NCBI GenBank assembly: GCA_947178215.1
Contig: CAMWXJ010000021.1
Span: 1-40,581, forward strand
Reading direction: 5' to 3'
DNA length: 40,581 nt
DNA from: an uncultured Porphyromonadaceae bacterium
GTDB lineage: Bacteria > Bacteroidota > Bacteroidia > Bacteroidales > Muribaculaceae
The notes under the pieces: generated by a model
Database searches by the model: none
What the model was told of the DNA's origin: nothing
The model's input: the letters and a program-made list of their open reading frames with translations, nothing else
Made by a program: the position numbers and the translations under genes
Shown: piece after piece, positions 6,722-15,819 of the stretch
How positions within the stretch are numbered: the first letter of the stretch is position 1
Layout of the letters: each line of letters opens with the position of its first letter

Positions 6722-6729
6722 TAAATTTG
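6722..6729 (+). promoter_or_regulatory. -7 element upstream of topA
   Basis: TAAATTTG matches TAnnTTTG; only a weak TCG occupies the -33 position. The predicted start near 6736 leaves a leader of about 65 bases. Between 6611 and 6721 nothing else is recognised. Confidence 0.5.
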
Positions 6730-6801
6730 CCGATTGATACACGTGACGGTGTAAGGCCGCCACAGCTTACCAACACCATCTACACACATTATTAATAGTT
6801 A

Positions 6802-9171
6802 ATGGCAAAGAACCTCGTTATAGTCGAGTCGCCTGCAAAGGCAAAGACCATTGAAAAATTTCTCGGGCCCGACTTCAAGGTGATGTCGAGCTACGGACAC
6901 ATACGCGACCTTGCGAAGAAAGACTTTGACCTTGCCGACGGAAAGGATTTTACGCCCGACTACGAGATCCCCGAGGACAAGGAGGAACTTGTGGAGAAGC
7001 TCCGGGCTGCCGCCAAGCAGGCCGACACAGTGTGGCTCGCGTCTGATGAAGACCGTGAGGGTGAGGCCATAGCATGGCATCTCGCGGTTGTGCTCGGTCT
7101 TGACCCGGCTACCGCCAAGCGCATAGTATTCCACGAAATAACCAAAAACGCAATACTCAACGCTCTCAAACATCCGCGCGAGATAGACCTGCGTCGCGTC
7201 GACGCCCAGCAGGCCCGTCGAGTGCTCGACCGCATAGTAGGCTTCGAGCTGTCGCCGGTGCTGTGGCGCAAGATACGCCCCGCGCTGTCGGCCGGCCGCG
7301 TTCAGTCGGTAGCCGTCCGCCTTATTGTGGAGCGCGAGGAGGAGATAAAGAAATTCAAGCCCGCGCCATACTATCGTGTGGCAGCCGGCTTCACCACTCC
7401 GTCGGGGGTGGCCGTAGGTGCGTCGCTCGGCGAGCGTCTGCCCGACCGCAAGGCTGTGGAGTCGCTTCTCGGCAAATGGAGCGTCGCTGCATGGCGTGTG
7501 GCCGACATACAGACCCGACCGCTGAAAAAGAGCCCGGCCGCACCGTTCACAACTTCGACGCTCCAGCAGGAGGCGGCCCGCAAGCTCGGCTTCTCGGTAA
7601 GCCAGACCATGCGCGTGGCCCAGCGCCTGTATGAGTCGGGCCATATAACATATATGCGAACCGACTCGCTTAACCTTTCCGACGAGGCCATGGCCGCTAT
7701 CTCATCGGAGATAACGGGCCGCTTCGGCAAAGAATATCTCGAGCCGCGCCGCTACCACACCAACTCCAAGGGTGCGCAGGAGGCCCACGAGGCCATACGC
7801 CCCACTTACATTTCGACAACCAAGCTGGCAGGCGTCACAGTTCAGGAGTCAAGGCTGTACGAGCTTATATGGAAGCGCGCCGTGGCCTCGCAGATGGCCG
7901 ACGCCGTGATAGAGAAAACCACCGCCGAGATTGCGTCCGATGCCGCCGGCACTCCCGTGCTCACCGCCTCGGGCGAAGTGATAAAGCACGACGGCTTCCT
8001 GCGCCTCTATATCGAGGGCACCGACGACGACGAGCAGCAGGGCACCGATGGCGAGAGCCGTCTGCCTCAGCTCACCGTTGGCGAAGTCCTCTCGCCGATA
8101 GAGATAACTGCAACCGAGCGCTACACTCAGCATCCCCCGCGCTACACCGAGGCCACTCTCGTCAAGAAGATGGAAGAGCTCGGTATAGGCCGCCCGTCGA
8201 CATATGCCCCGACCATCTCGACCATACAGCAGCGTGAGTATGTGACAAAGAGCAACATCACCGGAGAGAAGCGCGAGCTGACAAATGTGACCCTCGACTG
8301 CCGCACCGGAAAGATAACCGACTCGGTGCGCACCGAGACCGCCGGCGCCGACAAGGGCAAGCTGATGCCTACCGATACCGGCACGATTGTAAACGAATTT
8401 CTCACCGACTTTTTTCCAAACATCCTCGACTACAACTTCACGGCACGTGTGGAGGAGCGTTTCGACGAAATCGCGTCGGGCGCCACTCCGTGGAAAGAAG
8501 AAATCTCAGGCTTCTACGAGGTGTTTCATCCGGAGGTAGAGAAAGCCGTTGAGACACGCTTCGACCACAAGCCGGGCGAGCGCGAACTCGGCATCGACCC
8601 CGCCACGGGTCGCCCCGTGGCTGTGAAGATAGGCCGCTTCGGTCCCGTAGTGCAGATAGGACTGTCGACTGACGACGACAAGCCTCAGTTTGCCTCGCTG
8701 CGCCCTGACCAGAGCATGTTTGATATTACTCTCGAAGAGGCCCTCAAACTGTTTGAGCTACCGCGCACGATAGGCGAGTACAACGGCTCCCCCCTCGTGG
8801 CTTCGACAGGCCGTTTCGGCCCCTACATCCGCTACGACAAGAATAAGTTCGTGTCGATACCCGACGATCTGGCTCCCCAGACCGTTACAGCCCAACAGGC
8901 GATAGAGCTTATCGAGGCTAAGAAAGAGGCCGACGCTAAAAAGGTGCTCAAAACCTTTGACGAGGATGAGGATCTGCGCGTGCTCAACGGCCGCTTCGGT
9001 CCCTATCTCGTGTCGGGCGGCAAAAACTATAAGTTGCCTCGCGCCCTCGCCAATGACAAAGAGGCTATCGAAGCCCTGACAATCGACGAGTGCCGACGCA
9101 TTATCGCCGAAGCCGACGCCGCCCCCGCAAAAACGAAATCACCCCGCCGCTCCTCATCCAAAAAACAATGA
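6802..9171 (+). CDS. topA: DNA topoisomerase I (type IA)
   Basis: A 789-residue enzyme that relaxes negatively supercoiled DNA through a 5'-phosphotyrosine link. The Toprim domain starts at residue 1 (VIVESPAKAKTIEKFLG, then DEDREGEAIAWH with the acidic metal site). The catalytic Tyr is residue 284 in TYMRTDS. The signature PPRYTEATLVKKMEELGIGRPSTYA is split across residues about 440-465. The C-terminus carries three GRFGP repeats (near residues 610, 670 and 730) instead of zinc fingers and ends in a basic tail. It begins the forward block. Its stop overlaps the start of the pseudouridine synthase (ATGA), so the two are coupled. Confidence 0.97.
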   Translation: MAKNLVIVESPAKAKTIEKFLGPDFKVMSSYGHIRDLAKKDFDLADGKDFTPDYEIPEDKEELVEKLRAAAKQADTVWLASDEDREGEAIAWHLAVVLGLDPATAKRIVFHEITKNAILNALKHPREIDLRRVDAQQARRVLDRIVGFELSPVLWRKIRPALSAGRVQSVAVRLIVEREEEIKKFKPAPYYRVAAGFTTPSGVAVGASLGERLPDRKAVESLLGKWSVAAWRVADIQTRPLKKSPAAPFTTSTLQQEAARKLGFSVSQTMRVAQRLYESGHITYMRTDSLNLSDEAMAAISSEITGRFGKEYLEPRRYHTNSKGAQEAHEAIRPTYISTTKLAGVTVQESRLYELIWKRAVASQMADAVIEKTTAEIASDAAGTPVLTASGEVIKHDGFLRLYIEGTDDDEQQGTDGESRLPQLTVGEVLSPIEITATERYTQHPPRYTEATLVKKMEELGIGRPSTYAPTISTIQQREYVTKSNITGEKRELTNVTLDCRTGKITDSVRTETAGADKGKLMPTDTGTIVNEFLTDFFPNILDYNFTARVEERFDEIASGATPWKEEISGFYEVFHPEVEKAVETRFDHKPGERELGIDPATGRPVAVKIGRFGPVVQIGLSTDDDKPQFASLRPDQSMFDITLEEALKLFELPRTIGEYNGSPLVASTGRFGPYIRYDKNKFVSIPDDLAPQTVTAQQAIELIEAKKEADAKKVLKTFDEDEDLRVLNGRFGPYLVSGGKNYKLPRALANDKEAIEALTIDECRRIIAEADAAPAKTKSPRRSSSKKQ

Positions 9172-10142
9172 TAAGCATGATACAGCAGCCGGACGCTGAA
9201 ATGCAGCTCCCGGCCCCCCGCAAGCCGCAGGCTCCCGACGTGATACGTCGCTTTCCCGTAATTGAAGGCGACCCCGCCACCCTTCTTGCCTTTGTGCAGG
9301 CCAAGTTGCCGGAGATGAAGCGTACGCGTCTAAAACAGATGTTGCGTCACGACCAGATAGCTCTTGACGGTGTTCCCGTCACCGACGCCCTCTCACCTCT
9401 TGACCCCGGCGACGAGGTGGCCGTCAATTTCACCCGCGAATTTCGCATATTTCGTCACCGTCGCCTGAAACTCATATATGAAGACGACGACATCCTCGTG
9501 GTAGAAAAAGGTTACGGCTTGCTGTCGATGGGCAACGAAAACTTCCGCCCCGGCACCGACATGCACGGCGCTCCGCGTGAGACGGCCTACTCAATCATGC
9601 GCGACTATCTGAAATGGAAAGACCCCTCTGCCAAACTCTTCATAGTGCATCGTCTCGACCGCGACACCTCGGGCCTCATGATGTTTGCCAAAAATGTCGA
9701 GGCCAAGGAGACGCTTCAGCATAATTGGAACCAGATGGTGCTTGAACGCAAATATGTCTGCGTAGTGGAGGGATGCCCCGAAGAGCCGGCGGGCTCCGTG
9801 TCGTCGTATCTCAAAGAGAACTCCAAGTTCGAGGTATTCTCCCTCGACAAGCCGGAGCCGGGAGCAAAGCTCGCGGTGACACGTTACCGCACGCTTCGTC
9901 AGGGAGCCGGCTACTCGCTCGAGGAGGTGGAGCTTGACACGGGCCGAAAGAATCAGATTCGCGTACACATGAAGCAGCTCGGCACCCCGATAGCCGGCGA
10001 CCAGCGCTACGGCGGACACTCATGTCCGGCACACCGCCTATGCCTCCACGCTCAGACGCTCCGCTTCGTGCATCCTGTCACACGCCGCATGATGTCGTTT
10101 ACCACTCCTATTCCCTCGCCATTCCTGAAGCTCGTCAAGTAA
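9168..10142 (+). CDS. RluA-family RNA pseudouridine synthase
   Basis: A 324-residue enzyme converting uridine to pseudouridine in rRNA or tRNA. An S4-like RNA-binding region occupies residues about 28-90 (KRTRLKQMLRHDQIALDG). The catalytic motif HRLDRDTSGL is at 161-170 with Asp 164 as the catalytic residue. Later family motifs RKNQIRVHMKQLG and GDQRYGG are intact. The ATG at 9168 overlaps the topA stop and is preferred; an in-frame ATG at 9177 is the alternative, and a longer reading from 9090 overlaps topA with basic low-quality sequence. The exact RNA target (RluA, RluC or RluD-like) cannot be decided from sequence alone. Confidence 0.92.
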   Translation: MISMIQQPDAEMQLPAPRKPQAPDVIRRFPVIEGDPATLLAFVQAKLPEMKRTRLKQMLRHDQIALDGVPVTDALSPLDPGDEVAVNFTREFRIFRHRRLKLIYEDDDILVVEKGYGLLSMGNENFRPGTDMHGAPRETAYSIMRDYLKWKDPSAKLFIVHRLDRDTSGLMMFAKNVEAKETLQHNWNQMVLERKYVCVVEGCPEEPAGSVSSYLKENSKFEVFSLDKPEPGAKLAVTRYRTLRQGAGYSLEEVELDTGRKNQIRVHMKQLGTPIAGDQRYGGHSCPAHRLCLHAQTLRFVHPVTRRMMSFTTPIPSPFLKLVK

Positions 10143-10169
10143 GCGTTTCATCCCAATCATAACCAATTC

Positions 10170-12053
10170 ATGCATCGCCTCTTTCTTGCCTCACTGTTTT
10201 TCCTCTCTTTGATAGTAATGCCCGTAACATCTCATGCGCGCGCCGCCGGAAAGACTTCCAAGCAGAGCGTAGAACGCATCGACCCGCCTCATTGGTGGGT
10301 AGGCATGGCCTCCGACACACTCCAGCTCATGGTCTATGGCCCGGGAATAGGCAATGCCGAAATGACCATCGCCGGCAGTCATCCCGGTGTGGAGATAGCT
10401 GAGACAGTGAAGCTCGACTCGCCCGATTATCTTGTAGCCTATCTCACGGTGGCACCCGACGCCGAGCCTCAGACCGTTGGCCTCGATTTCAGGATGCCGG
10501 GCAAGAAAGGCGCCGTGGCGCATGTTGATTATCAGCTCCGTGAGCGTCACACCACCGGTGCCGCAGGATTCGACACCTCAGATGCCCTGTATCTGATAAT
10601 GCCCGACCGCTTCGCGAAAGGCCATGCAGCCAACGAGGGGCATGAGCGCGACGGCTTGCAATATCCCGCTCCCGACGACCCCGACAACCCCAATGCCCGC
10701 CACGGCGGCAATATCGCCGGCATGACGGAACATCTCGACTACATCGACTCGCTCGGTGTGACGGCGGTGTGGGTTAATCCCGTGCTCGAAAACGATATGC
10801 CGGGCGGCTCATATCACGGATATGCCACCACCGACTATTACGCCATTGACCCGCGACTCGGCACCAACGACGAGTGGAAAGCGTTTGTCGACTCATGTCA
10901 CGAGCGCGGCATCAAGGTGGTTATGGATATGATTTTTAACCATTGCGGCTCAAACCACAGGTGGATGACAAATCCGCCGTGCCGCAACTGGTTCAATTTC
11001 CCCGACTCGTTTGTCGTGACCAACCACCGCCTGTCGACACTCTACGACCCTTACGCCTCCGACTTCGACCGCAAGCGCGCAACCGACGGCTGGTTTGTCA
11101 AGGAGATGCCCGATCTCAATCAGCGCAACCCGCACCTGAAACGCTATCTTATCCAGAACTCAATATGGTGGATAGAGGAGAGCGGTATCGACGGCATACG
11201 CATGGACACATATCCCTATGCCGACTTCAACGCAATGGCCGAGTGGTGTCGTGATGTTGAGCGCGAGTACCCCGACTTCAACATCGTGGGCGAGTGCTGG
11301 TATGCCCACGAGGCGCCCGAGGGATTCTGGCAGCGCGGCTCGCGCATCAACCGCCTCGGCGACCCCGGGCTCCCCACAGTAATGGACTTCAAGCTGATGA
11401 CGATAGCCCGCGACGCGTTCACTCAGGAGACCGGCCCTTGGACTACCAACGGCCTCAACGAGATATACAATCATCTCGGTTTTGACTTCATGCTCGCCGC
11501 CCCGAAGCGCATCCTCACTTTCCTTGACAACCACGACACCGACCGCTTCCTGCTTGAAATGCCCGACGACCTTTCGCAGTGGAAGCAGGCGCAGACATTC
11601 CTGCTCACTTCGCGTGGCATTCCTCAGATATATTACGGCACAGAACTGCTAATGCACGGCTCCAAAGAGGGGAGCGACGGATTTATCCGTCTTAATGTGC
11701 CGGAAGCCGAATTTACCAGCGAGGGGCGCACCGACATCCAGAACGAGGCTTACGATTTTATGTCGACTCTTCTCAACTGGCGCAAGGCCCACCGCGACTT
11801 TTTCAAATCGGCCTCGCTTAAACACTTTGCACCTGTCGGCACCGTATATGCCTACTCGCTTACCTCTGACGCCGCTCCGGGTGAGCTGTTCGTAATACTC
11901 AACGGTTCTGACGAAGAGGCTGAGGCCGACACGTCGGCATGGAGCGAGGCGCTGAAAGGGCGCACTCATTTCACCAATGCACTGACGGGTGAGGAGGTGG
12001 AGGTCACACCTGTGATGACACTTGCTCCGCGCGCGTCGCTTATCCTGCAATAA
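10170..12053 (+). CDS. Secreted GH13 neopullulanase/cyclomaltodextrinase, SusA-like
   Basis: A 627-residue alpha-glucan hydrolase. A signal peptide covers about residues 1-25. Next is an N-terminal cyclomaltodextrinase-type immunoglobulin-like domain (ERIDPPHWWVGM, LQLMVYG; about 35-125). A GH13 barrel follows with all catalytic residues: nucleophile Asp 346 (GIRMDTY), acid/base Glu 375 (IVGECW) and Asp 456 (LDNHDTDR). A C-terminal beta domain ends at ASLILQ. The architecture is that of periplasmic SusA-type neopullulanases that cut pullulan, cyclodextrins and maltooligosaccharides. It sits 27 bases after the pseudouridine synthase, without a visible promoter, and no SusC/SusD pair is nearby. 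That is unusual for a glycan-utilisation enzyme. Confidence 0.92.
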   Translation: MHRLFLASLFFLSLIVMPVTSHARAAGKTSKQSVERIDPPHWWVGMASDTLQLMVYGPGIGNAEMTIAGSHPGVEIAETVKLDSPDYLVAYLTVAPDAEPQTVGLDFRMPGKKGAVAHVDYQLRERHTTGAAGFDTSDALYLIMPDRFAKGHAANEGHERDGLQYPAPDDPDNPNARHGGNIAGMTEHLDYIDSLGVTAVWVNPVLENDMPGGSYHGYATTDYYAIDPRLGTNDEWKAFVDSCHERGIKVVMDMIFNHCGSNHRWMTNPPCRNWFNFPDSFVVTNHRLSTLYDPYASDFDRKRATDGWFVKEMPDLNQRNPHLKRYLIQNSIWWIEESGIDGIRMDTYPYADFNAMAEWCRDVEREYPDFNIVGECWYAHEAPEGFWQRGSRINRLGDPGLPTVMDFKLMTIARDAFTQETGPWTTNGLNEIYNHLGFDFMLAAPKRILTFLDNHDTDRFLLEMPDDLSQWKQAQTFLLTSRGIPQIYYGTELLMHGSKEGSDGFIRLNVPEAEFTSEGRTDIQNEAYDFMSTLLNWRKAHRDFFKSASLKHFAPVGTVYAYSLTSDAAPGELFVILNGSDEEAEADTSAWSEALKGRTHFTNALTGEEVEVTPVMTLAPRASLILQ

Positions 12054-12110
12054 TGGCAGCGAATTCACTCCGCGCATAATAAACGGAACTAAGGTGTCGT
12101 TAACCCTTAT

Positions 12111-13193
12111 ATGGCTACCGTATCACTCCCAACCGACGCGTCGATAATACTGACCTACCGTTGCCCGATGCGTTGCGTTATGTGCAACATCTGGCAGAAC
12201 CCGACCGACAAGGATCGTGAAATCACGGCGGCCGACCTCAGGTCGTTGCCACGCCTGAAATTTATCAACCTCACCGGCGGCGAGCCTTTTGTGCGCGAAG
12301 ACCTGGCCGAGATAGTAGAGGAGTGTTACCGACACACCGACCGTATCGTAATATCTACCTCGGGCTTTTTCAGCGACAGGGTCATCGAACTGGCCCGCCG
12401 TTTTTCCAAGATAGGCATCCGAATCTCTATCGAGGGGCTGTCGGAGAAAAACGACGAGCTACGCGGCCGCAGGGGTGGATTTGACCGCGGCCTGGCGACA
12501 TTGCTGCAATTAAAGGATATGGGGCTGAAAGATATTGGTTTTGGCTGTACGGTGTCAAACCACAACTCCACCGATATGCTGTCGCTCTACCGGCTGTCAA
12601 GGTCGCTCGGCATGGAGTTTGCAACCGCGGCGTTTCACAATTCTTTTTATTTCCATAAGGATGACAACGTCATCACTAACCGCGACCGCGTGGTCAACGA
12701 CTTCAAGCAGCTTATAGAGTGGCAGCTCAAGGAGCCGCATCCCAAGTCGTGGTTTCGCGCGTGGTTCAACATGGGCCTCATCAACTATATCGAGGGGCGT
12801 AAGCGCATGCTGCCGTGCGAGGCCGGCATTACCAATTTCTTCATAGAGCCTTACGGCGATGTGTATCCCTGCAACGGCCTTGAATTGAAGTACTGGAAAG
12901 AGTCGATGGGCAACATACGCACCACGCCGTTTGACGAGCTGTGGAGCAGCAACCAAGCCGAGCACGTGCGTGCGCTTGTGCGCTCGTGCCCCAAAAACTG
13001 CTGGATGGTAGGCACCGCTTCGCCGGTGATGAAAAAGTATATCACTCATCCTGCCCGCTGGGCGCTTGCCAACAAGCTGCGCACCCTGTGTGGACTGAAA
13101 CCGTGTCTCGACATGACGCGGGCCGATGTAGGGCAGGATTCGCGGCAGGGCGACCTGCGCATCCCCTCGGAGGAGGAGAGGACAGGCCGATGA
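12111..13193 (+). CDS. Radical SAM protein with SPASM-like C-terminus
   Basis: A 360-residue radical S-adenosylmethionine enzyme. The 4Fe-4S site is C18-x3-C22-x2-C25 in TYRCPMRCVMCNIW. The SAM-binding glycine motif is NLTGGEPF. The C-terminal part carries further cysteines in LPCEAG, VYPCNG and CPKNCW, as in SPASM/twitch domains that bind auxiliary clusters. The substrate is not evident; relatives modify peptides, or act in polysaccharide clusters. It follows the GH13 gene by 57 bases, and its stop overlaps the GT4 glycosyltransferase start by four bases, so the two are probably co-translated and functionally linked. Confidence 0.88.
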   Translation: MATVSLPTDASIILTYRCPMRCVMCNIWQNPTDKDREITAADLRSLPRLKFINLTGGEPFVREDLAEIVEECYRHTDRIVISTSGFFSDRVIELARRFSKIGIRISIEGLSEKNDELRGRRGGFDRGLATLLQLKDMGLKDIGFGCTVSNHNSTDMLSLYRLSRSLGMEFATAAFHNSFYFHKDDNVITNRDRVVNDFKQLIEWQLKEPHPKSWFRAWFNMGLINYIEGRKRMLPCEAGITNFFIEPYGDVYPCNGLELKYWKESMGNIRTTPFDELWSSNQAEHVRALVRSCPKNCWMVGTASPVMKKYITHPARWALANKLRTLCGLKPCLDMTRADVGQDSRQGDLRIPSEEERTGR

Positions 13194-14311
13194 GGGTAGT
13201 GGTGACAGGCACACGCGGTATTCCGTCGATTCAGGGTGGTGTAGAGACTCACTGCGAGCAGCTTTATCCGTTGCTTGCTGACCTGGGTGTCGACGTCACA
13301 GTAATCCGACGCCGCAGATACGCTGCCGCCGTAGCCGATGCCTCAGGTCTTACGGCGTGGCACGGCGTTCGGCTTCGCGACATTTACGCTCCGCGACGCA
13401 AAAGCCTTGAAGCAATAGTGCATACTTTTCTGGCCGTCGTCGAGGCGCGCCGTCTTGACGCCGATATAATGCATATCCATGCCGTGGGGCCGTCGCTAAT
13501 GGTGCCATTCGCACGTCTGCTCGGCATGAAAGTTGTGATGACAAACCATGGGCCCGACTACCGGCGCGCCAAGTGGGGCAGGGCGGCAGCTGCCGTACTT
13601 CGGCTCGGCGAGCGGCTCGGCAGCCGTTTTAGCAATCGCGTCATTGCAATATCGCCGGCTATCGCTGCCGACGTCAAGGAGAAGTATGAGCGCGAGTGTG
13701 CTTTGATTCCCAACGGTGTGGCGACGCGGAGCATTCCTGCCGGCAGCGACACACTCATCGCTCCTTTCGGACTTATCCCGGGGCGCTATATAGTGGCGGT
13801 AGGTCGGTTTGTTCCAGAAAAGGGGTTCGACAGGCTTATTGACGCGTTTGCCTTGTTGCGGCGGAGTGGTCGTATTACCGATGATTTACGACTTGTAATT
13901 GCCGGAGACGCCGACCATGAAAGCGAGTATTCTCGGCGTCTGCGACGCATGGCGTCCGCAACTGAGGGAGTGGTGCTGACAGGATTTATCACAGGCGACA
14001 TCCTCGCCGCCATTACCGGCAGCGCCGCCCTGTTTGTGATGCCGTCGACCCACGAGGGGTTGCCCATAGCGCTGCTTGAAGCGATGAGCTACGGCCGTGA
14101 TGTGGCGGTGAGCGACATTGAGGCGTGTCGTCTTCCGGAGCTATCCCGAGGAGATTTTTTCGATGCCGCCAACACGGAATCAATAGCCGACCGTATCGCA
14201 TCGAAACTGGCGGCGCCTGCAACCCCACGACGTTACGATCTAACGCGCTACCGTTGGCCCGACATAGCAAGAGCCACGCTGAATCTCTATCGGGAATTAT
14301 GTAGCAACTGA
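13190..14311 (+). CDS. GT4 family glycosyltransferase
   Basis: A 373-residue GT-B fold glycosyltransferase, probably using a nucleotide-sugar to extend a surface or secreted glycan. The N-terminus TGTRGIPSIQGGVETHCEQL carries the glycine-rich acceptor-side loop of GT4 enzymes. The linker region GRFVPEKGFDRLIDAF and the retaining-GT motif E-x7-E (EGLPIALLE) in the second domain are intact. The ATG at 13190 overlaps the stop of the radical SAM gene (ATGA); the longer reading upstream is antisense-quality sequence inside that gene and is rejected. No membrane segment is seen. Donor and acceptor are unknown. Confidence 0.9.
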   Translation: MRVVVTGTRGIPSIQGGVETHCEQLYPLLADLGVDVTVIRRRRYAAAVADASGLTAWHGVRLRDIYAPRRKSLEAIVHTFLAVVEARRLDADIMHIHAVGPSLMVPFARLLGMKVVMTNHGPDYRRAKWGRAAAAVLRLGERLGSRFSNRVIAISPAIAADVKEKYERECALIPNGVATRSIPAGSDTLIAPFGLIPGRYIVAVGRFVPEKGFDRLIDAFALLRRSGRITDDLRLVIAGDADHESEYSRRLRRMASATEGVVLTGFITGDILAAITGSAALFVMPSTHEGLPIALLEAMSYGRDVAVSDIEACRLPELSRGDFFDAANTESIADRIASKLAAPATPRRYDLTRYRWPDIARATLNLYRELCSN

Positions 14312-14328
14312 CAAAAACTATTATTAAC

Positions 14329-14357
14329 CGAGTGCTTGAAACCTCGTAAAAAACAAG
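14329..14357 (+). promoter_or_regulatory. Candidate preQ1-I riboswitch upstream of queuosine-precursor transporter
   Basis: A compact H-type pseudoknot can form. P1 is CGAG (14329-14332) with CTCG (14343-14346). P2 is CTTG in the loop (14335-14338) with CAAG (14354-14357), joined by an A-rich strand TAAAAAA. This matches the layout of class I preQ1 aptamers: the first loop base is U (14333), the base before the 3' side of P1 is C (14342, the expected preQ1-pairing position), and an A-rich tail precedes P2. P2 ends four bases before the ATG, so ligand binding would block translation initiation. P1 is short (4 bp) and loops are one base shorter than in the Bacillus example as I remember it. The assignment rests on this fold and on the downstream gene. 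Confidence 0.6.
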
Positions 14358-14361
14358 AATC

Positions 14362-15054
14362 ATGACAAAAAAACTTCACGACGTCAGCAAGGCGTCAGGT
14401 TCAGTAAAGGAGCCGCCAATCACAGTGACTTTCCTTGTGCTCACTGTACTTTTTTGCGTGTGTCTTATCGTCAGCAACATCATGGAGATAAAGACCGTGA
14501 TGATAGGACCGCTCACGCTCACAGCGGGAATCGCGGTGTTTCCTGTGAGCTATATCATCAACGACTGTATTACTGAAGTCTATGGCTACTCCCGCGCCCG
14601 ATTGGTGATATGGACCGGCTTTGCGGCCAATCTGCTTGTGGCGCTACTGCTTCAAATAGGCATCATGCTTCCGGGAACTCCCGACTGGCAGGGTCAGGAG
14701 GCCATGGAGTTGATTTTCGGTGCCGTGCCACGTATTCTGCTCGCAAGCTTCACCGCATTTGTGTGCGGCTCTCTCGCCAATGCCAAGGTGATGAGTGTGA
14801 TGCACCGCGCCTCGGGTGGCGCGCGAGGCTTTTCGCTTCGCGCCGTTGTCTCGACGCTCGTAGGCGAGAGTATCGACTCGGCCATATTCTTTCCTATCGC
14901 TTTCGGCGGCAATCTGCCGTGGAGCGTCATTGTGACGCTCATGATTACACAGGCCGTCACCAAAACTCTTTACGAAATACTCGTGCTTCCGCTCACAATA
15001 TTGATTGTGAAACGGATGCGCCGCTTTAACCCGCTTCCCCATGAACTCTATTGA
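14362..15054 (+). CDS. Queuosine precursor transporter, YhhQ (VUT) family
   Basis: A 230-residue inner-membrane protein with about six hydrophobic segments. Diagnostic family stretches are LIVSNIMEIKTV, FPVSYIINDCITEVYGY and the later VGESIDSAIFFPIAF. The family imports preQ0/preQ1 (or queuine) for synthesis of queuosine, the modified base at position 34 of His, Asn, Asp and Tyr tRNAs. A preQ1-I-like element lies just before the start codon, which supports the substrate. No queC/D/E/F genes are in the window, so the cell may salvage or synthesise the base elsewhere. The gene overlaps the YjjG-like gene by 14 bases and may be read from the upstream GT4 operon, as no -7 element is seen in the 50-base gap. 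Confidence 0.9.
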   Translation: MTKKLHDVSKASGSVKEPPITVTFLVLTVLFCVCLIVSNIMEIKTVMIGPLTLTAGIAVFPVSYIINDCITEVYGYSRARLVIWTGFAANLLVALLLQIGIMLPGTPDWQGQEAMELIFGAVPRILLASFTAFVCGSLANAKVMSVMHRASGGARGFSLRAVVSTLVGESIDSAIFFPIAFGGNLPWSVIVTLMITQAVTKTLYEILVLPLTILIVKRMRRFNPLPHELY

Positions 15055-15766
15055 CATGTCACCGGTACGCGTAGTGTGGATAGACCTCGACGACACTATC
15101 ATCGACTTTCACGCAAACTCGCGCGCCGCTCTCGCCAACCTGTATCATCAGCGTCGCTTCGATATCCTGTGGCCTACCGTCGACAACTGGATTGCCGCCT
15201 ATGAGCGGCACAACATATCGTTGTGGGTCGACTATTCGGTAGGAATCATCGATAATGCAACGTTGCGTCTTGAACGCTTCCGGCGTCCGCTTACCGAAGC
15301 CGGTGTTGCCGACGCTGATGCAAGGAAGCTCTCGCCTGACCTCGATCCGCAATATCTTGACCTACTCGCTCAGGAAAAAAAGCTTATTCCCGGCGCTATT
15401 GAGCTACTTGATGCATTACGCGGCCGCAGCCTCACCATCGGCGTGCTGTCAAACGGTTTTGCCGACGTGCAGCACCGCAAAATAGCGAGAGCCGGACTTA
15501 CCGACAAGATAGATATAACGGTGCTGAGCGACGATATTGGAGTCAACAAGCCCGATACGCGCCTGTTCCGTTACGCGCAGAGCCGCACGCCGTGGCCCGA
15601 CAATCCATCGGCACACTTGATGATAGGCGACAATCCCGCTACCGACATAGGAGGCGCGTTGAAGGCCGGTTGGCAGGCTGTATGGTTCAACCCTAAGCGT
15701 CAACCCGATTGCCCGGAGGGCGCGGCCGAGTTTGCGTCGCTCGCCGACATAATGCGTGCTCTGTGA
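15041..15766 (+). CDS. YjjG-like HAD phosphatase (pyrimidine 5'-nucleotidase type)
   Basis: A 241-residue HAD hydrolase. Motif I is IDLDDTIID (two catalytic Asp), motif II is VLSNGF, the motif III lysine is in NKPDTRLF, and motif IV is IGDNPATDIGGA. The helical cap lies between residues about 20 and 105, which places it in subclass I. The closest match in pattern is the YjjG/YfnB group, which dephosphorylates pyrimidine nucleotides including non-canonical ones. The ATG at 15041 overlaps the transporter; a second ATG at 15056, one base after the transporter's stop, is equally possible and would remove five residues. Confidence 0.85.
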   Translation: MNSIDMSPVRVVWIDLDDTIIDFHANSRAALANLYHQRRFDILWPTVDNWIAAYERHNISLWVDYSVGIIDNATLRLERFRRPLTEAGVADADARKLSPDLDPQYLDLLAQEKKLIPGAIELLDALRGRSLTIGVLSNGFADVQHRKIARAGLTDKIDITVLSDDIGVNKPDTRLFRYAQSRTPWPDNPSAHLMIGDNPATDIGGALKAGWQAVWFNPKRQPDCPEGAAEFASLADIMRAL

Positions 15767-15811
15767 CCGGCGGAGTTTCACCCTCTGTGCGACAGTTTCA
15801 CATTTTCTCCT

Positions 15812-15819
15812 TACCTTTG
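15812..15819 (+). promoter_or_regulatory. -7 element upstream of the Fsr-type MFS gene
   Basis: TACCTTTG is a perfect -7 match, with a predicted start near 15826 and a 22-base leader. The -33 position lacks TTG. Confidence 0.55.

Follow-up and report, generated by a model that had tools for sequence, protein, structure and literature searches.

What does a 29-base element sense when it lies directly before the gene of a queuosine precursor transporter in a Muribaculaceae genome, and how would so small a structure act on translation in a bacterium whose ribosomes generally do not use an SD sequence? A first-pass annotation of the window, that is of the whole 40,581-nucleotide stretch of DNA analysed here, had proposed a preQ1-I-like knot that gates translation of the importer. 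As a prediction, this is the best explanation of our data. We consider it very probable that the element is a class I type II preQ1 aptamer, of a compact kind seen in Bacteroidales whose P1 has 4 bp, and that it lowers translation of the importer when preQ1 is plentiful. PMC numbers refer throughout to the available portions of the cited articles.

On the forward strand the element occupies positions 14329-14357 and reads CGAG UGCUUGAAAC CUCG UAAAAAA CAAG, followed by AAUC and an AUG at 14362. Its parts and the gene that follows are:

14329..14332, + strand: 5' strand of P1, CGAG, pairing with 14343-14346
14333..14334, + strand: L1, UG; U14333 is the counterpart of the pocket uridine
14335..14338, + strand: 5' strand of P2, CUUG; G14338-C14354 is the expected ceiling pair
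14339..14342, + strand: L2, AAAC; C14342 is the counterpart of the preQ1 specificity base, and AC is the type II signature
14343..14346, + strand: 3' strand of P1, CUCG, partner of CGAG; G14332-C14343 is the floor of the pocket
14347..14353, + strand: L3, UAAAAAA, A-rich, with adenines -12 (14350) and -13 (14349)
14354..14357, + strand: 3' strand of P2, CAAG, with adenine -6 (14356)
14358..14361, + strand: spacer AAUC from P2 to the AUG, with adenine -3 (14359)
14362..15054, + strand: yhhQ / QPTR queuosine precursor transporter; Vut_1 163.9 bits (cut-off 27.2), TIGR00697 120.7 bits (cut-off 50.95)

The sequence agrees with the description first given of it: an H-type pseudoknot of 29 bases, with four canonical pairs each in P1 (CGAG/CUCG) and P2 (CUUG/CAAG), a U as first loop base and a C before the 3' P1 strand. 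The distance of four bases to the start codon was likewise correct, as was the assignment of the downstream gene to the YhhQ family, for which both profiles scored above their curated cut-offs. That the element is one of the smallest variants holds for P1, which is reduced to 4 bp, but not for the loop of 10 bases, which is not unusually short for type II. The type II aptamer of Tte also has a loop of 10 bases. Neither is it an isolated minimal oddity, but the Muribaculaceae form of an element that is present in 20 other Bacteroidales families. A pattern describing the geometry occurred at one place on both strands of the window and nowhere in 100 mononucleotide shuffles of one strand; as it was designed with the target in view, this is not independent evidence. 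The independent evidence is conservation, namely 62 loci found with the strict pattern and two covarying P1 pairs in 40 family elements.

We expect yhhQ (14362..15054) to be the gene under control of the element. Upstream, a glycosyltransferase ORF ends at 14311, leaving 17 bases to the element; on the other side, the 3' end of yhhQ and the beginning of a YjjG-type HAD ORF overlap at 15041. A sigma-70-like match at 14336-14363 represents a promoter type not expected in this host. No exact TAnnTTTG box was present on the + strand from 6722 to 15812, so that yhhQ is probably co-transcribed with the genes upstream, which favors translational control within a longer transcript. The genome of the window contains matches to queF, queC, tgt and queA, all over cut-off, and the importer would therefore be turned down when preQ1 suffices. 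The genome scan gave one match to the element model there. In the same genome, queF and queC are adjacent (G000:C12:66259-67266, L272), with no recognisable copy of the element in the stretch examined, and there are two queA-like genes (G000:C20:30417-31463 and G000:C1:31166-32374), the second inside a longer open frame of 477 aa.

Within Muribaculaceae, 106 of 149 genomes gave a yhhQ match. In 93 genomes the gene was a close one (at least 190 bits), and in 58 of them, two weak matches included (G065, E 0.003; G007, E 0.03), the element model matched before the gene, these genome counts being lower bounds since stricter filters let the scans score 15 to 42 candidates per genome and not all of them. 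The other 35 had no placed match, which indicates that the control is dispensable; on inspection, several of these loci proved to be internal to an operon or preceded by a short leader, and in one (G018, L094) there is a divergent candidate. The strict pattern returned 62 family-type loci, or 60 after removal of the duplicates L031 and L034; three of the 60 (L032, L033, L035) come from outside the family sample, the pattern omitted L067 and L094, and L219 is a repeat of L019.

In 40 aligned family elements, P1 pair 1 was C-G in 26, A-U in seven, U-G in four, G-C in one and unpaired in two, P1 pair 3 was A-U in 35 and U-A in five, and P2 was invariant. Neither the covariation score nor the pairing of this alignment was reached by any of 500 shuffles, and pairing was 99.4% vs 27-53% in slid controls. 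The number of covarying pairs (equalled in 212/500 shuffles) and that of pair types (60/500) did not stand out.

Some family members depart from the common form. In one genus (L013, L050 and L067, from G024, G065 and G045) a hairpin is inserted in the loop between the P2 5' strand and AC, with P1 and P2 kept. In G007 (L023, the same locus as L034) L3 has grown to 40 bases, and P1 could gain a fifth pair (G-C). The divergent candidate of G018 (L094 / L267) lies before yhhQ, with queC next; it has P1 UCGUG/CACGA and a loop ending in AC, and its possible P2, UUCC/GGAG, contains an SD-like strand.

Beyond the family, a scan of 395 genomes of the class gave nine matches at E<=1e-4, all of them in Bacteroidales and the window copy among them; the best match outside the order had E=0.002. 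At E<=2e-4, a scan of 344 genomes of the order gave 55 matches, of which three belong to the own family and the other 52 to 45 genomes from 20 further families. Together with G526 of the class scan, this makes 53 order-level copies in 46 genomes, and the first gene downstream was yhhQ in 44, queC in eight and queD in one, where queE follows queD. One QueC (TIGR00364, 249.9 bits) and one QueD (TIGR03367, 97.8 bits) were over the NCBIfam cut-off and QueE was the best NCBIfam match below it (149.9 vs 240); the remaining genes were assigned by BLAST to the checked QueC and QueD and to the window protein. Seven genomes (G255, G318, G487, G597, G655, G698, G788) carried copies on two separate preQ1 loci. 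Three weaker order-level matches (L264-L266, 4e-4 to 8e-4) had no yhhQ, queC, queD or queE downstream, and neither, on inspection, had the weak model matches L207, L208, L216 and L217; among the weak matches without such a gene, the inspection covered these seven, and a further seven order-level matches lie at 1.4e-3 to 1.9e-3.

Among the 113 Bacteroidales elements, the second L1 base was G in 98, A in 12 and U in three. P2 was CUUG/CAAG in 109, AUUG/CAAU in two, and GUUG/CAAA and GUUG/CAAG in one each. L3 had seven bases in 105 of the 113 and 40 in one, and the loop 10-13 bases, with 27 and 33 in two parsed cases.

Another observation concerned a hairpin upstream of P1. Its 3' strand ended 0-1 base before P1 in 30 of the 53 order-level elements (score at least 10), compared with a mean of 7.9 and a largest value of 13 in shifted controls and a mean of 5.8 in shuffles; the stem sequences of these hairpins differ. 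In the second clade described below, such a hairpin abutted P1 at gap 0 in 23 of 30 elements (shifted 3.9, shuffled 4.0). These counts are not independent, since the rows are partly near relatives (39 and 24 distinct elements). In the own family the abutting hairpin was found in 2 of 60 elements, rarer than in the control (7.4), and a leader hairpin was looked for in the window and not found. Where present, the hairpin may stack on the short P1.

This second clade came with L038 (Xinfangfangia, Rhodobacterales), a distant relative with the same geometry and a different P2. The transporter is present in 115 of 120 genomes of its family, and the element preceded yhhQ in 30 of 30 loci, which are the best 30 of 116 places, chosen as best transporter matches and not as a random draw. 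All 30 elements have a P1 of the CAAG/CUUG kind, 24 of them exactly, and a loop of 10 or 11 bases with AC at its end; P2 is UCCG/CGGA in 23 and of close form otherwise, and an ATG lies 6-10 bases downstream in 29. The P2 strand CGGA is SD-like, from which it follows that the same aptamer may suit the start mechanism of each host. The region just downstream of yhhQ matched the CC2171 sRNA of Rfam below cut-off (19.8-46.2 bits) in L038 and in 16 of 18 loci of its family (L274 to L298). In L038, this region contains GAAAGGAGGUGAUCC, which we take to be complementary to the 3' end of 16S rRNA.

Taken together, we parsed 143 elements (60 from the family, 53 order-level and 30 from the Rhodobacterales family; 86 distinct within groups). 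P1 pair 4, the floor corresponding to G14332-C14343, and P2 pair 4, the ceiling, were G-C in 143/143. The U at the first loop position, the AC at the loop end and the A before the P2 3' strand were each present in 143/143 as well. The invariance of pairs and bases is partly by construction, the parsing patterns having asked for U, for AC and for some of P2, but every order-level and Rhodobacterales locus fitted its pattern. Pairs 1-3 of both stems varied with compensation, the exceptions being three elements unpaired at P1 pair 1 and, at P2 pair 1, five G.G and one G.A. An alignment of 30 sequences contained 18 cells with changes on both sides, against a shuffle mean of 5.5 and with 0/500 shuffles as high; the number of pairs with both-side changes (equalled in 472/500) and of pair types (167/500) did not stand out. 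In alignment A3, where row L253 is out of register in P2, the corresponding values were 45/500 and 10/500. A MAFFT alignment of both clades was set aside because differences in L3 length shift P2, and pairs were counted from the parsed parts. The covariation that had been named as a check among relatives is thus present: P1 covaries in the family, and P2 changes on both sides of a pair in 2 of 113 Bacteroidales elements and as a block between clades. As P2 is nearly invariant in the order, its covariation rests on the two AUUG/CAAU rows and on the difference between the two clades. Published structures assign the contacts with preQ1 to the floor pair, the specificity C, the U and the A (PMC10622847, PMC11625349), and the G-C pair topping P1 was called invariant across subtypes (PMC10622847).

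By the tests that can be computed, the Rfam score excepted, the element classifies as a preQ1 class I riboswitch: it combines a predicted H-type pseudoknot with the invariant floor G-C, the specificity C, the pocket U and A, and a gene of preQ1 synthesis or uptake downstream. Type II is defined by AC before the 3' P1 strand and type I by UC (PMC11625349), and the AC seen in the window and in 143/143 elements thus indicates type II. The window has AC and UG, not the UC and UU of type I, and UG and CAAG, not the UU and AAGG of type III. Since class I types I and II are already on record for Bacteroidota (PMC11625349), finding type II in this phylum is no novelty by itself.

The Rfam check proposed in the first-pass annotation turned out negative. 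RF00522 had no match in the window, nor at E<=10 in 14200-14450, and its gathering score (39 bits) was reached neither in the window nor anywhere in its genome. At E<=10, it matched at the element in 0/35 loci, comprising the window, L022, L030, L050, L086, L091, L094 (divergent), L095, L038, eight order-level and 18 Rhodobacterales-family loci. The model, whose consensus has UU and UC, did find B. subtilis among the controls, and in a filtered scan of the class it was over cut-off in one of 395 genomes. Membership of the element in the class rests accordingly on structure and context. The sole copy over cut-off (L215 in G484, 50.7 bits) lies directly before a yhhQ-like ORF, and a sub-threshold match (L214 in G399, 27.1 bits) lies about 110 bases upstream of a queC-like ORF, both genes being judged by eye.

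The element shares with the type II aptamers of Tte and Bsu the H-type pseudoknot, the AC, the first-loop U, the A-rich L3 and the G-C floor and ceiling pairs. Unlike these, it has a 4-bp P1, a 3' strand without SD and no RF00522 match, and in 30 of 53 copies from other Bacteroidales families a hairpin abuts P1. P2 (CUUG/CAAG) forms four canonical pairs here vs two of four in Tte, whose riboswitch controls translation (PMC11625349). With the type III element of E. coli yhhQ, it has in common the very small size, the AC specificity base and, as predicted here, the control of yhhQ via the start region. Type III carries UU after the 5' P1 strand and AAGG as SD strand (PMC11625349), whereas we found UG, UA and UU in 98, 12 and 3 of 113 elements, and CAAG. 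The general fold and the A-rich tail are those of type I and of the RF00522 consensus, in which, however, UU and UC flank P1 in place of the AC seen here.

How the element would act is suggested by its position. In Bacteroidia, SD sequences are generally unused, and A at -3, -6, -12 and -13 together with low structure governs initiation, as worked out in Flavobacterium johnsoniae (PMC9976891, PMC6847099). The window has A at all four positions, and -6, -12 and -13 lie within P2 and L3. In 108 elements adjoining a start codon, A was found at -3 in 66, at -6 in 88, at -12 in 99 and at -13 in 93, and the spacer to the AUG was 4 in 63, some spacers of 0-1 in this set being due to an ATG inside the spacer. 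Without the knot, the leader of the window folds weakly (-2.5 kcal/mol). As P2 and L3 end four bases before the AUG and hold the start adenines, SD-independent translational repression is likely.

From the observed sequence, conservation, covariation and association with preQ1 genes we infer the ligand, the direction of control and the ribosome block. When plentiful, preQ1 would sit between the G14332-C14343 floor and the G14338-C14354 ceiling pairs where C14342, U14333 and the adenine preceding P2 would recognise it. Binding would close P2 and pack the A-rich L3 into the groove of P1, and the closed knot would hide the adenines at -6, -12 and -13, so that translation of the importer drops. 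At low preQ1, there would be a weak P1 hairpin, and the A-rich strand would be free for initiation. The lack of an RF00522 match, the near-invariant P2 and the 35 of 93 genomes without a match count against this explanation, as do the rows with mispaired or unpaired cells, the shuffle measures that did not stand out and four queC copies distant from their start codon.

A class I aptamer that in the cell mainly binds preQ0, or a different 7-deazaguanine, instead of preQ1 seems to us unlikely, but it is the alternative that fares best. YhhQ transports both preQ0 and preQ1, the affinities of the Tte type II aptamer for the two are only 17-fold apart (PMC10622847), and the genome encodes QueC, which produces preQ0. 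It also encodes QueF, which converts preQ0 to preQ1, and the pocket positions are those of preQ1 aptamers, yet preQ1 and preQ0 are not separated by this.

We give a still smaller chance to an action on transcription, by pausing or termination, instead of translation. The type II aptamer of B. subtilis controls termination (PMC11625349), and in four queC copies (L241, L246, L248, L251) some 70-170 bases separate the element from the start codon, a distance at odds with occlusion of the AUG region; on inspection of these four loci, no common terminator or ORF was evident. The knot of the window, however, ends four bases before the AUG, and 14200-14500 contains no terminator-like site.

A DNA operator, in which the CGAG...CTCG inverted repeat is bound by a dimeric repressor of preQ1 genes, is very improbable. 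The two halves of P1 do form an inverted repeat, and TAnnTTTG occurs within 60 bases upstream in 38/53 and 30/60 copies (shuffled means 1.9 and 1.6). This box lies anywhere from 5 to 52 bases ahead of P1, however, whereas the spacer from the element to the AUG is 4 in 63/108, and the window copy has no such box nearby. The loop varies from 10 to 13 bases (27 and 33 in two cases), L3 has 40 in one, and conservation of the asymmetric parts (CTTG, AC, AAAAACAAG) is on a par with that of the repeat itself. Just as improbable is a merely conserved, ligand-free, A-rich SD-less start region, which the tail UAAAAAACAAGAA would suit given the start-region preference of Bacteroidia, but which accounts neither for the covariation in P1 and the conservation of loop bases nor for the confinement to preQ1 genes and the four copies distant from a start codon.

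The translational preQ1 aptamer thus being preferred, what appears new about it is that it sits at a start region lacking SD, that a hairpin abuts P1 in part of the copies, and that the 4-bp form occurs in two phyla. The type II model reportedly stems from McCown 2014, and the published type II alignment is said to hold 521 sequences; an earlier listing of these elements there is possible. In the available portions of the literature, which exclude supplements and subscription papers such as McCown 2014 and include PMC11625349, PMC10622847, PMC2258182, PMC3766115, PMC11089507, PMC11130926 and PMC9495176, we found no description of the element for either Bacteroidales or Rhodobacterales. For B. 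thetaiotaomicron, PMC7366714 names three TPP riboswitches, and preQ1 is absent from its main text as available. The title of one of its references speaks of Bacteroides TPP riboswitches regulating transcription or translation, so that the general idea is not wholly new for this group.

In conclusion, we tentatively propose a distinct class I subclass in Bacteroidales and the Rhodobacterales family, a grouping that may turn out slightly more readily wrong than right. It would be marked by a 4-bp P1, against which a hairpin usually abuts and could stack, and by a P2 fitted to the host, with an SD-like CGGA in one clade vs an SD-less A-rich start signal in the other. If this is true, Bacteroidales would have a translational preQ1 switch that works independently of SD, of a kind predicted by a 2024 review, in which a knot of 29 bases covers the adenines used by Bacteroidia ribosomes in place of SD. 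It would link the uptake of queuosine precursors to a regulator and mean that a preQ1 switch is widespread in one of the major orders of gut bacteria, within a class where RF00522 was over cut-off in 1/395 genomes of the filtered scan.
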